Below are positions 1,115 to 14,907 of a stretch of DNA of 25,119 nucleotides, one piece after another. The stretch is from a virus: the IMG/VR virus record IMGVR_UViG_3300030108_001239, positions 1-25,119 of that record, one strand, 5' to 3'. Made by a program: the position numbers and the translations under genes. The number at the start of each line of letters is the position of its first letter. Position 1 is the first letter of the stretch. The notes under the pieces are model-generated. The model did not search any database, was not told where the DNA came from, and was given only the letters and a program-made list of their open reading frames with translations.

Positions 1115-2296
1115 ATGCGCGATGAATGGGCTGAGTATCACGAGATGATGGCAAAGCGGGGCAAGCCTGCAACAACCCCGCCTCAGAGCCACCTCAATGG
1201 CTCCTCAGAGCAAAACTCTTTACCCCCTACCCAAGACATTGAAGTGCCTAAATCTGCTCTCAGCAGGCTTAAAAGCGCCGCTGTCAATAGCAGACTAGAA
1301 GAAATGGAAGAACGCCTCCAACGAGAGCGCGATGTAATCCCTCAGATGATTACGACCGGAACAGTTACCCTTGTGTACGCCCCCAGCGGAGCAGGCAAGA
1401 CAGTCTGGATACTTGGCAACTTATTCCAATCAATCGACAACGGACTCATAAGAGGCGAGGACGTCATCTACTTCAACGAGGACGATGGCGCTAGGGGTGT
1501 AATCCAGAAGGCAAAACTTGGCGATCAGCGCGGCATGACAATGGTGACGCTATCGAACTCCAATGATGCATTACTCAGAAACACAGGCGATGCTCTTAGA
1601 TTATTAAACCTAATCAGAATGGAAGGAGAAGCTGACGGCAAGATAGTCATTTGCGACACCCTTAAAAAGTTTGCCCCAGTTTTAAACAAAGGAGATATGC
1701 GTGAGGTGCTTCATGTGTTCAGAGAGTTTGCAGCATCAGGCGGCACAGTCATATTACTTGGACACTGTAATAAGCACAGGACAATGGACGGCAGGCTCGT
1801 ATACGAGGGTGTAGGTGACCTCAAAGCAGACGTTGACAATATGTTTGGCCTTGACCCTCTCAACGACAAGTACGCCCCATACCAAGAGCTATTAGTAATT
1901 AATGAAAAGGATAGGTCCCAGGTCAGCTTCAAGGGTGGATTCAAGTACAAGCAAACTAGCCAGCTTATAGATTATAAAGAGTCAGTAGCATCTGTTGAGT
2001 TTCTTGGTGAGGACGACATTGAGAATCTAACTCTAAGACAGAAAGCACAGATCAACATAGCAAAAGCAAAGGCTCATTATGAAGATGAGTTCTTTTTCTT
2101 AAAGGCCGCAATGAAAACTGGCCAGACGTTTTCCCAATCAGATCTTTATCGAATGCTGTATGACGATGATATAAATCCTAACGAGTGCACAAAGAAAACA
2201 TTGCGAAATTGCATGAAATTACTGCAAGGAAACTACCTACAAATGGAGCGAGTAGGGCAATACAACGCAAAACATTACAAGTGGGTCACATATTAG
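1115..2296 (+). CDS. RepA-like RecA-fold ATPase (replication ATPase/helicase), 393 aa
   Basis: This is a P-loop ATPase of the RecA/RepA (AAA_25-type) group, expected to be a hexameric helicase or initiator ATPase. Walker A is APSGAGKT at residues 89-96; Walker B is KIVICD at 176-181; a third motif, LLGHCNKH (214-221), matches the conserved His region of RepA-like ATPases and is followed by the usual GDLKADVDNMF segment (about 234-244). Residues 1-75 are a hydrophilic, Pro/Gln-rich leader with a charged helix. Residues 310-393 look like a separate helical, possibly winged-helix, DNA-binding domain. Start ATG has AGGAG six bases upstream. The 9-bp repeat clusters begin over its stop codon, which fits an ATPase acting at a nearby origin. 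A recombination ATPase role cannot be excluded. Confidence 0.75.
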   Translation: MRDEWAEYHEMMAKRGKPATTPPQSHLNGSSEQNSLPPTQDIEVPKSALSRLKSAAVNSRLEEMEERLQRERDVIPQMITTGTVTLVYAPSGAGKTVWILGNLFQSIDNGLIRGEDVIYFNEDDGARGVIQKAKLGDQRGMTMVTLSNSNDALLRNTGDALRLLNLIRMEGEADGKIVICDTLKKFAPVLNKGDMREVLHVFREFAASGGTVILLGHCNKHRTMDGRLVYEGVGDLKADVDNMFGLDPLNDKYAPYQELLVINEKDRSQVSFKGGFKYKQTSQLIDYKESVASVEFLGEDDIENLTLRQKAQINIAKAKAHYEDEFFFLKAAMKTGQTFSQSDLYRMLYDDDINPNECTKKTLRNCMKLLQGNYLQMERVGQYNAKHYKWVTY

Positions 2297-2321
2297 TTGG
2301 CCCCGTTGGCCTCGTTGGCCC
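2295..2321 (-). repeat. Iteron cluster A: three 9-bp repeats, reverse orientation
   Basis: Read on the minus strand the units are GGGCCAACT (2303-2295), AGGCCAACG (2312-2304) and GGGCCAACG (2321-2313), end to end with a 9-base period. The first unit runs into the TAG stop codon of the RepA-like gene. Orientation is opposite to clusters B and C. Confidence 0.8.
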
Positions 2322-2396
2322 CAGATTTAGGGGGCGGGTCCAGATCAGTAAGCGTTCTGGACAGTTCGCGAGAGCTTAGTTCAGGCGTAATATGAT

Positions 2397-2423
2397 GGGC
2401 CAACTGGGCTAACTGGGCCAACA
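2397..2423 (+). repeat. Iteron cluster B: three 9-bp repeats, forward orientation
   Basis: Units GGGCCAACT (2397-2405), GGGCTAACT (2406-2414) and GGGCCAACA (2415-2423) are tandem with no spacer. The AT-rich run ATATATAAAA follows at once, a likely place for strand opening. Confidence 0.85.
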
Positions 2424-2510
2424 TATATAAAACCTGGGTTTAAACGCCTCAGCCTATTACTGATTGAGGCAAAACTGCAATAACCCAGTACTGGTAAAGT
2501 GCAATTTTAT

Positions 2511-2567
2511 GGGAAAAAGTGGCCTGTTTTCCCCTTTAACGTACTAGCTTAGGGGAAAAGCGGCCTG
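2511..2567. repeat. 16-bp imperfect direct repeat flanking a 9-bp stem-loop
   Basis: GGGAAAAAGTGGCCTG (2511-2526) and GGGGAAAAGCGGCCTG (2552-2567) match at 14 of 16 positions and lie 41 bases apart. Between and partly overlapping them is the inverted repeat TTTTCCCCT/AGGGGAAAA (2527-2535 with 2551-2559). With the following GGCCTG/CAGGCC pair this gives a compact set of possible hairpins inside the candidate origin. Confidence 0.6.
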
Positions 2568-2596
2568 AAAGCCCCCTTACAGGCCCCCTAAAACAG

Positions 2597-2623
2597 GGGC
2601 TAACTGGGCCAACTGGGCCAACT
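2597..2623 (+). repeat. Iteron cluster C: three 9-bp repeats, forward orientation
   Basis: Units GGGCTAACT (2597-2605), GGGCCAACT (2606-2614) and GGGCCAACT (2615-2623) are tandem. The cluster begins exactly 200 bases after cluster B. Its last unit touches the GGAG ribosome-binding site (2624-2627) of the NinB-like gene, so a bound protein could also control that gene. Confidence 0.85.
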
Positions 2624-2633
2624 GGAGAAGCAA

Positions 2634-3056
2634 ATGGATGGTGGACAAGGCTGGATTGTTGATACAACTGACAAACTGGAAGGATTTATTGGCTTTGTTA
2701 AAAAGTCATTTAAGGATAACAAACATCACCTGTACTTAATTAAAGATGCAAACAGATCAGTCAAGCAAAACAATGCCATGCATGTATGGTTCAGACAACT
2801 AGCAGAAGAACTAAACAATGCTGGACATACAATGCCACATCCTTTTGATGATGACTTTGAACTTTCATTTACAGAAATACGAGTAAAAGAAATACTTTTC
2901 AAGCCAATCATAGAGGCAATGTATGATAAAAAATCTACTGCAAAACTAACTACTAAAGAACTAAGCGATGCCGCAGAAGAGCTTATACGGTATCTATCAG
3001 AGCACAAGGGGGTCTATGTTCCATGGCCCCAAACAATGAAGGATGAAATGCGATGA
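2634..3056 (+). CDS. ninB: NinB-like recombination mediator (lambda Orf family), 140 aa
   Basis: Lambda NinB/Orf binds single-stranded DNA and helps load the annealing protein, replacing host RecFOR functions. Here the diagnostic part is DANRSVKQNNAMHVWF (about residues 38-53), matching the NRSxxQN motif and following helix of the family. Length (140 aa) is close to the lambda protein (146 aa). The C-terminal half has helices ending with a KGVYVPWP segment in the place of the conserved C-terminal region. Start ATG at 2634 has GGAG six bases upstream, directly after iteron cluster C. Its stop overlaps the next start in ATGA, so it is coupled to the NinG-like nuclease. Sequence similarity is confined to the central motif, hence moderate confidence. 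Confidence 0.62.
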   Translation: MDGGQGWIVDTTDKLEGFIGFVKKSFKDNKHHLYLIKDANRSVKQNNAMHVWFRQLAEELNNAGHTMPHPFDDDFELSFTEIRVKEILFKPIIEAMYDKKSTAKLTTKELSDAAEELIRYLSEHKGVYVPWPQTMKDEMR

Positions 3057-3478
3057 GACTAAAAAGGACGGCGGCGGACCACTGGTTTAGTCGTTGTGTC
3101 AGGATGCGAAATGACTTTATTTGCCAGGGATGTGGCAAACAATACGATGAAAAGAGTATGGCACTGCACTGCTCTCACTACTTTGGACGCGCAAAGAAAG
3201 GCGTAAGGTATGATGGGTTAAATGCTTTTGCTCACTGCTATGGATGCCATCAAAGATTTGGCAGTAACCCTGATTACTTCTACCGTCATTACATTGACAC
3301 CTATGGCGAGGGCGCTTTAACTTTATTAAGAGAAAAAGTAGAAGATATAACGCTTGGCAAACGCATGACAAAAGAACAAAAAGAAATATCCAGTCACTAC
3401 AAAAAAGAAGCTTTCCGCATGGAAAACGAAAGGCTAAAAGGAGTTAAAGGATGGTTAGAGTTTGAAAGCTGGGACTAA
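3053..3478 (+). CDS. ninG: NinG/Rap-like recombination endonuclease with HNH-type zinc site, 141 aa
   Basis: Rap (NinG) of lambda is a structure-specific nuclease that cuts D-loops and Holliday junctions during Red-type recombination. The protein has a Cys/His-rich core: C24-x2-C27, then H39-C40-S-H42, and H61-C62-x2-C65-H66, with GRAKKGVRYDGLNAFAHC between them. This is the layout of NinG and related HNH nucleases (CxxC, central HxxH-like strand, closing CxxCH). It is shorter than lambda NinG (about 204 aa) because the N-terminal extension is missing. The C-terminus is a long charged helix. It is translationally coupled to the NinB-like gene (ATGA). Its stop codon overlaps the stop of the convergent late gene at 3475. 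A generic HNH protein is the alternative. Confidence 0.68.
   Translation: MRLKRTAADHWFSRCVRMRNDFICQGCGKQYDEKSMALHCSHYFGRAKKGVRYDGLNAFAHCYGCHQRFGSNPDYFYRHYIDTYGEGALTLLREKVEDITLGKRMTKEQKEISSHYKKEAFRMENERLKGVKGWLEFESWD

Positions 3479-12912: not shown

Positions 12913-12913
<1 letters not shown>
12266..12913 (-). CDS. Head-tail adaptor (P22 gp4 / T7 gp11-like), 215 aa
   Basis: The protein probably forms the ring between portal and tail nozzle. It begins MTYLDICNGVLRRLREDEV, then a helix KMVGDFINDAKDLVETAWDWSALRSTL, followed by a beta-rich middle (residues 55-150) and C-terminal helix with LLARERGETGG. The opening helix pair with the A-W-x-W/F segment is typical of podovirus adaptors annotated as tail tubular protein A or gp4-like. 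Start ATG at 12913 overlaps the stop of the low-complexity protein by one base (TAATG), showing coupling. The nozzle gene follows after 8 bases. Size and neighbours both match; distant homologues vary too much to name one family. Confidence 0.62.

Positions 12914-14907
<1,994 letters not shown>

Follow-up and report, generated by a model that had tools for sequence, protein, structure and literature searches.

Opposed arrays of 9-bp repeats beside a RecA-like ATPase gene as a candidate replication origin in uncultured, mostly marine phages

The alpha protein of phage P4 binds iterons through a C-terminal winged helix at two separated cis sites, ori and crr. RepA of RSF1010 is a hexameric helicase of the AAA_25 family, and the iterons are bound by a separate protein, RepC. 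The origins of PICI, SaPI and SCC elements lie directly 3′ of rep and carry iterons that are read by a C-terminal domain (PMC6092414, PMC7581432); in 2018, the PICI origin plan was described as known in no other bacterial replicon. Lambda O reads with its N-terminal half four 19-bp iterons, which lie inside the O gene and have an AT-rich flank (PMC4488673), and ORF904 of pRN1 has a C-terminal winged helix, with the origin directly downstream of the replication gene (PMC4234260).

Here we analysed a 25,119-nt stretch of viral DNA (the window) in which 9-bp repeats follow the gene of a RecA-like ATPase, a putative initiator. As in PICIs and SaPIs (and in the SCCmec Cch2-ori), the element lies immediately 3′ of the candidate initiator gene and comprises two sets of short iterons, for which the predicted reader is again a C-terminal domain. 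However, the iteron sets of PICIs and SaPIs flank an AT-rich region, whereas the phage core is GC-rich; PICIs and SaPIs are islands, whereas the array element belongs to complete phages; and the phage ATPase is a RecA-like AAA_25 protein with a winged helix, in which no SF3/D5/MCM-type helicase was identified. The comparison with PICI-type SF3/AAA+ Rep proteins draws on Pfam, which gives AAA_25 only, and on a poor model of the ATPase core. Because of the different ATPase type and the GC-rich core, we regard the element as one that would work like a PICI origin, without filing it as a member of that group. With P4 it shares a putative initiator with a C-terminal winged helix and two separated array sites, the second of which, as an accessory initiator site, would be comparable to crr, but alpha is a fusion of primase and SF3 helicase and the second site is optional in the phages studied here. 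Lambdoid O proteins likewise are phage initiators with iterons of their own; the present element differs in its 9-bp units, in their position outside and 3′ of the gene and in the predicted C-terminal reader. The origin of pRN1 is a conserved stem-loop without iterons, whereas our element has iterons and no conserved pairing. RSF1010 RepA belongs to the same broad Pfam ATPase family, a comparison based on the AAA_25 match and on weak Foldseek matches to RecA-fold proteins, with no sequence match in the PDB; the difference is that ATPase and predicted iteron reader are joined in one phage protein.

The window, a virus contig, encodes its late genes on the minus strand and the ATPase, ninB and ninG on the plus strand (Table 1). 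Its capsid and portal proteins are distant from those of known phages, the portal being nearest to Roseobacter/Puniceispirillum-type phages (about 25%). The 9-bp units occupy three 27-bp clusters in the 337-bp gap between the ATPase stop (2296) and the NinB-like start (2634), and the last cluster ends 10 bp before the latter. Eight of the nine units have at most one mismatch to GGGCCAACT, and the middle unit of cluster A has two. A period-9 self-match of at least 16/18 was found in exactly three stretches of the window, all in this gap, and in none of 100 dinucleotide shuffles, so that the nine units in three clusters with cluster A inverted, as described in the first-pass annotation, were recovered in full. 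Clusters A and C lie at the outer ends of an imperfect inverted repeat with 41-bp arms (2295-2335 and 2583-2623, 85% complementary). Between them, at 2511-2579, lies a partly palindromic core repeat, AGGGGAAAAGYGGCCT...TTTTCCCC, which is also present in the cores of L053 and L055; common to otherwise distant lineages, it may be a small insertion of its own.

Table 1. Coordinates of the ATPase gene, the repeat element and its neighbours in the window, and loci of the second array in relatives
Feature	Position	Strand	Description
AAA_25/RecA-like ATPase, 393 aa, candidate initiator-helicase	1115..2296	+	Walker A PSGAGKT; Pfam AAA_25, E 7e-8
ATPase C-terminal domain, residues 300-393	2012..2293	+	predicted repeat-reading winged helix
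Predicted recognition helix, residues 360-370	2192..2224	+	columns 362 and 364 separate the types
Specificity-linked residues	T362 2198-2200; R364 2204-2206	+	within predicted recognition helix
Cluster A, left array	2295-2321	-	three units, GGGCCAACG AGGCCAACG GGGCCAACT (unit strand); equivalent array in relatives
Core box TTTAGGGGGCGGG	2326..2338	+	beside left array; conserved in relatives
Cluster B	2397-2423	+	three units, GGGCCAACT GGGCTAACT GGGCCAACA; private to sub-lineage
GGCCCCCTAAAA, inverted partner of core box	2582..2593	+	beside right array
Cluster C, right array	2597-2623	+	three units, GGGCTAACT GGGCCAACT GGGCCAACT
NinB/Orf-like recombination mediator	2634..3056	+	phrog_72, E 9e-9; linkage control
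NinG/Rap-like endonuclease	3053..3478	+	phrog_5034, E 3e-23
Second-array loci at late/early junction	L122, L140, L169-L172, L176, L178-L180, L209, L213		single orientation

We compared the window with relatives from viral contigs (80) and with 45 further loci obtained by a DNA-only search. Directly 3′ of the RecA-like (AAA_25) ATPase gene, virtually all of the 124 viral relatives carry two opposed 9-bp arrays, separated by a short core that is mostly GC-rich, contrary to the absence from relatives that had been named as grounds for rejecting the element. After the ATPase stop come, in order, 3-7 reversed units (the left array), the core and 3-6 forward units (the right array); in 54 of 65 distinct elements, the left array starts at most 30 bp away from the stop. 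Over all lineages the unit consensus is G (92%), G (99%), G (96%), C (85%) or G (10%), then A-rich/T-rich positions, C and T. The core usually starts with TTTAGGGGGC, contains a TAGGGGGC-type box in 86 of 123 parsed relatives and has a median AT content of 44% with GC-rich boxes; AT-rich stretches occur outside the arrays in some lineages. In several relatives, inserted genes separate the array from the ATPase gene or from ninB, and the element stays intact; L038, L040 and L042 carry extra small ORFs exactly between the ATPase stop and the left array. When 2.9 million viral contigs were scanned for GGGCAAACTGGGCAAACTGGGCA alone, 46 stretches matched; 44 followed the ATPase gene by at most 600 bp, one was truncated there and one was unrelated. 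Since many of these contigs were already known by protein, the scan shows the specificity of the sequence and does not add further independent examples.

Other parts of the first description belong to the window and its closest kin. The spacing of 200 bp between clusters B and C holds in the window and is 168 bp in L005, whose ATPase is 95% identical; cluster B itself is present in these two only and decayed in L006, so the B-C part of the pattern is not a rule. Likewise, the three-by-three layout is limited to the window and L005; the general plan has 3-7 units in each of two opposed arrays. The AT-rich patch after cluster B is not conserved among relatives either. A switch in GC skew had been suggested as a mark of the origin. 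The skew is positive only at about 1.0-3.5 kb, where the genes of the window are on the plus strand, and in the window, as in six long relatives, it goes with the strand of the genes; it therefore cannot serve as a test for an origin here.

The ATPase matches phrog_6357, which is labelled as of unknown function. Modelled alone, its C-terminal domain is predicted by AF2 as a winged helix with a mean pLDDT of 87.6, nearest to PadR, HxlR and Fur-type DNA-binding domains (VIA, Z about 9). The model of the ATPase core is of low confidence and matches RAD51/KaiC/DnaB/Twinkle folds weakly in Foldseek; claims about the fold from the full-length model were dropped because the core is modelled too poorly. 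By sequence, no relative was found in the PDB, solved RepA proteins included. No cultured relative came up at E 1e-5 in 50,697 phage records, and the weak matches up to E 10 were led by a Campylobacter phage protein (1e-4); in bacterial genomes, a relative was found in one MAG contig only. The phage family that carries the ATPase-array element is uncultured and mostly marine.

The relatives fall into two repeat types, which differ at unit position 4: G in 13 phages (GGGG type) and C in 111 (GGGC type). Across the 124 ATPases, only columns 338, 345, 362 and 364 (window numbering) separate the types completely, and all four lie in the C-terminal winged helix, 362 and 364 within the predicted recognition helix. 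Column 362 is K in GGGG phages and T, M, Q or S in GGGC phages; column 364 is L in GGGG phages and R in all 111 GGGC phages. Loss of an arginine together with its paired G, and gain of a lysine together with the new G, would be chemically sensible. No column of the ATPase core separates the two types, and none in NinB follows the repeat type, though NinB flanks the array on the other side. From this covariation, together with the exchange and second-array results below, we are highly confident that the repeats represent iteron-like binding sites of the C-terminal winged helix of the adjacent ATPase.

The distribution of the types indicates that winged helix and array travel together. Between L059 (GGGG) and L064 (GGGC), DNA identity is 0.88-1.00 over the ATPase core; it drops to 0.5-0.8 in a segment that coincides exactly with the winged-helix codons plus the array, and where ninB starts it is again 0.98-1.00. 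On the core tree, the GGGG phages need four changes, two of which are forced by well-supported branches, and a single GGGG clade is rejected (p-AU 0.023); independent type switches are few (two forced, about four in the best tree). Related phages have thus exchanged the winged helix and its sites as a matched pair, much as a lock is replaced along with its key. Since the two are neighbours, linkage alone could explain such a joint exchange.

A second, distant array separates these explanations. In some genomes, the intergenic region between the leftward late and the rightward early genes, 8-9 kb away from the ATPase gene, contains one array of the left type, so that the repeats, which had been proposed to be confined to the one locus, are nearly but not entirely so. 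The second array is followed by a GGGGGCGGG box, which is also part of the main element, and by an AT-rich stretch. It is missing from many genomes, including most of the other junctions located by the landmark TTGTATCTGGGTGG. Where both types are known, that of the second array equals that of the ATPase in 12 of 12 contigs, six of them GGGG (L025, L026, L029, L038, L059 and L060) and six GGGC (L031, L032, L046, L053, L057 and L064). By count alone the probability of this match is 1/924, for twelve contigs which are related; three GGGG lineages among them are separate on the core tree. At the second array, the L059 and L064 contigs (L178 versus L170) are nearly identical on either side, except for about 35 bp of diverged sequence immediately ahead of it; within the array, each unit differs at position 4. 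Linkage cannot explain the match of an array at this distance, and a type switch amid near-identical flanks argues that specificity is set by a trans-acting factor. The ATPase winged helix is the sole candidate found to change with the repeat type and very probably reads the repeats in trans. The second array would be an accessory initiator site or an operator; given its place where genes diverge, a role in regulation would be just as natural. The same intergenic region contains a strongly conserved landmark, TTGTATCTGGGTGGNAACT with CCTATCCTATA upstream (for example in L168, 3219-3237), which probably represents divergent promoters or a regulatory site.

The main rival to an origin is transcriptional regulation, with the arrays as operators through which the ATPase would control ninB-ninG and, in genomes with a second array, the divergent late/early promoters instead of the start of replication. 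Such operators would account for the covariation as well as an origin does, and they would fit both the right array, which in many phages ends a few bases before the ninB start, and the second array within the divergent intergenic region. Yet there is no promoter-like site in or beside the window element, insertions on either side of the array have not led to its loss, the many genomes without a second array indicate that it is not needed for core regulation, and it would be unusual for a RecA-like ATPase to act simply as a repressor. We consider this explanation unlikely, although it deserves serious attention. Less probable still is a partition, packaging or recombination site of NinB, NinG, terminase or a host factor. 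NinB and NinG adjoin the arrays, and the second array is next to the leftmost of the late genes, close to the terminase end, but the repeat type is followed by four winged-helix columns and by none in NinB, and no phage integrase was found in 17 relatives. An attP site was rejected on the same search (no PF00589 match in the 17 related records).

It is very improbable that the element works as a structured RNA or cruciform by pairing of its left and right arms. The window region has a strong predicted fold (z -7) and its arms are complementary to the extent given above; among 58 distinct elements, however, the consensus units of the two arms are identical in only one and different in 57, so that pairing is not what selection keeps. 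The commonest pair of arms, GGGCATTCT on the left and GGGCAAACT on the right, leaves mismatches without compensation, and in a few relatives the two arm types are reversed. A conserved hairpin is largely refuted by this lack of compensatory change across the arms. Moreover, searches against Rfam and for tRNAs gave no match, and pairing would leave the second, single-orientation array and the covariation with the winged helix unexplained. A G-quadruplex array was likewise rejected, as the motif of four G-tracts with short loops is present in 31 of 65 right arms, 23 left arms and both arms of 17 elements and is not conserved. That the repeats arose by chance or encode a collagen-like repeat can be dismissed almost entirely: the same 26-mer elsewhere in viral contigs is mostly part of longer period-9 runs that seem to resemble Gly-X-Y coding repeats, but in all relatives the units are intergenic, opposed and of lineage-specific sequence, and the shuffled windows had none. 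Other viral contigs with a CCAACT array resemble coding collagen-type repeats and were set aside.

Replication initiation is the best-supported role of the element, since an ATPase that reads iterons adjoins its own sites. We therefore think that the ATPase-adjacent element is probably a replication origin of the phage, and we favour, with reasonable confidence, the joint reading of iteron-like sites for the ATPase winged helix within an element that most likely serves as an origin. The iteron origin proposed at first sight has thus held as a conserved cis element of the ATPase gene with the ATPase as its very probable binder, which together are what an iteron origin needs, and its origin function is the part that we infer, with PICI/SaPI origins as the closest precedent. 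In G011, a complete-looking genome with terminal repeats, the early genes covered by a profile scan include an exonuclease, an Erf-like annealing protein, the ATPase, NinB and an anti-restriction protein, and among them no polymerase, primase or other initiator was identified.

In the proposed mechanism, each winged helix would dock on one 9-bp unit, and the two opposed arrays would gather two ATPase oligomers face to face across the core. These oligomers could then open the strands or load onto them and bring in the host replisome, so that replication would proceed in both directions. Hexamer formation, helicase activity, strand opening and origin activity are all inferred here, helicase activity because the ATPase core is poorly modelled and has no sequence relative in the PDB. 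With its median AT content and GC-rich boxes, the core offers no obvious melting site. More tentatively, and with slightly less than even confidence, the phages could possess an undescribed type of replicon: a RecA-like ATPase with a winged helix as a self-loading initiator-helicase, two opposed 9-bp arrays around a GC-rich core, an optional distant array and at least two interchangeable origin-specificity types, with the type decided by two residues of the recognition helix and a single base of each repeat, so that coinfecting phages of different type would replicate independently.

Our analysis provides a likely initiator and a specific candidate origin for a sizeable uncultured, mostly marine phage family for which the phage collection searched contained no close cultured relative. 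The natural series of GGGC with R364 versus GGGG with K362 and L364, in which the second array switches in step, represents a ready-made experiment on the base preference of winged helices and on the co-evolution of initiator and site. If the element is an origin, phages with a different ATPase would also have evolved the arrangement of two iteron sets 3′ of rep that a 2018 report described as confined to PICIs.

Three further observations were made in these contigs. The 58-kb contig IMGVR_UViG_3300046167_000364 (L136, L143) carries two different ATPase-array modules and is either a chimeric or concatenated assembly or a phage with two modules. A 62-kb contig (L125) is the sole unrelated viral contig with a GGGCAAACT array, which occurs there twice and away from any ATPase gene of this type. 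In the window, positions 12913-14907 (minus strand) encode a 664-aa protein with long Gly-Thr and Gly-Asp tracts, located among tail and structural genes.
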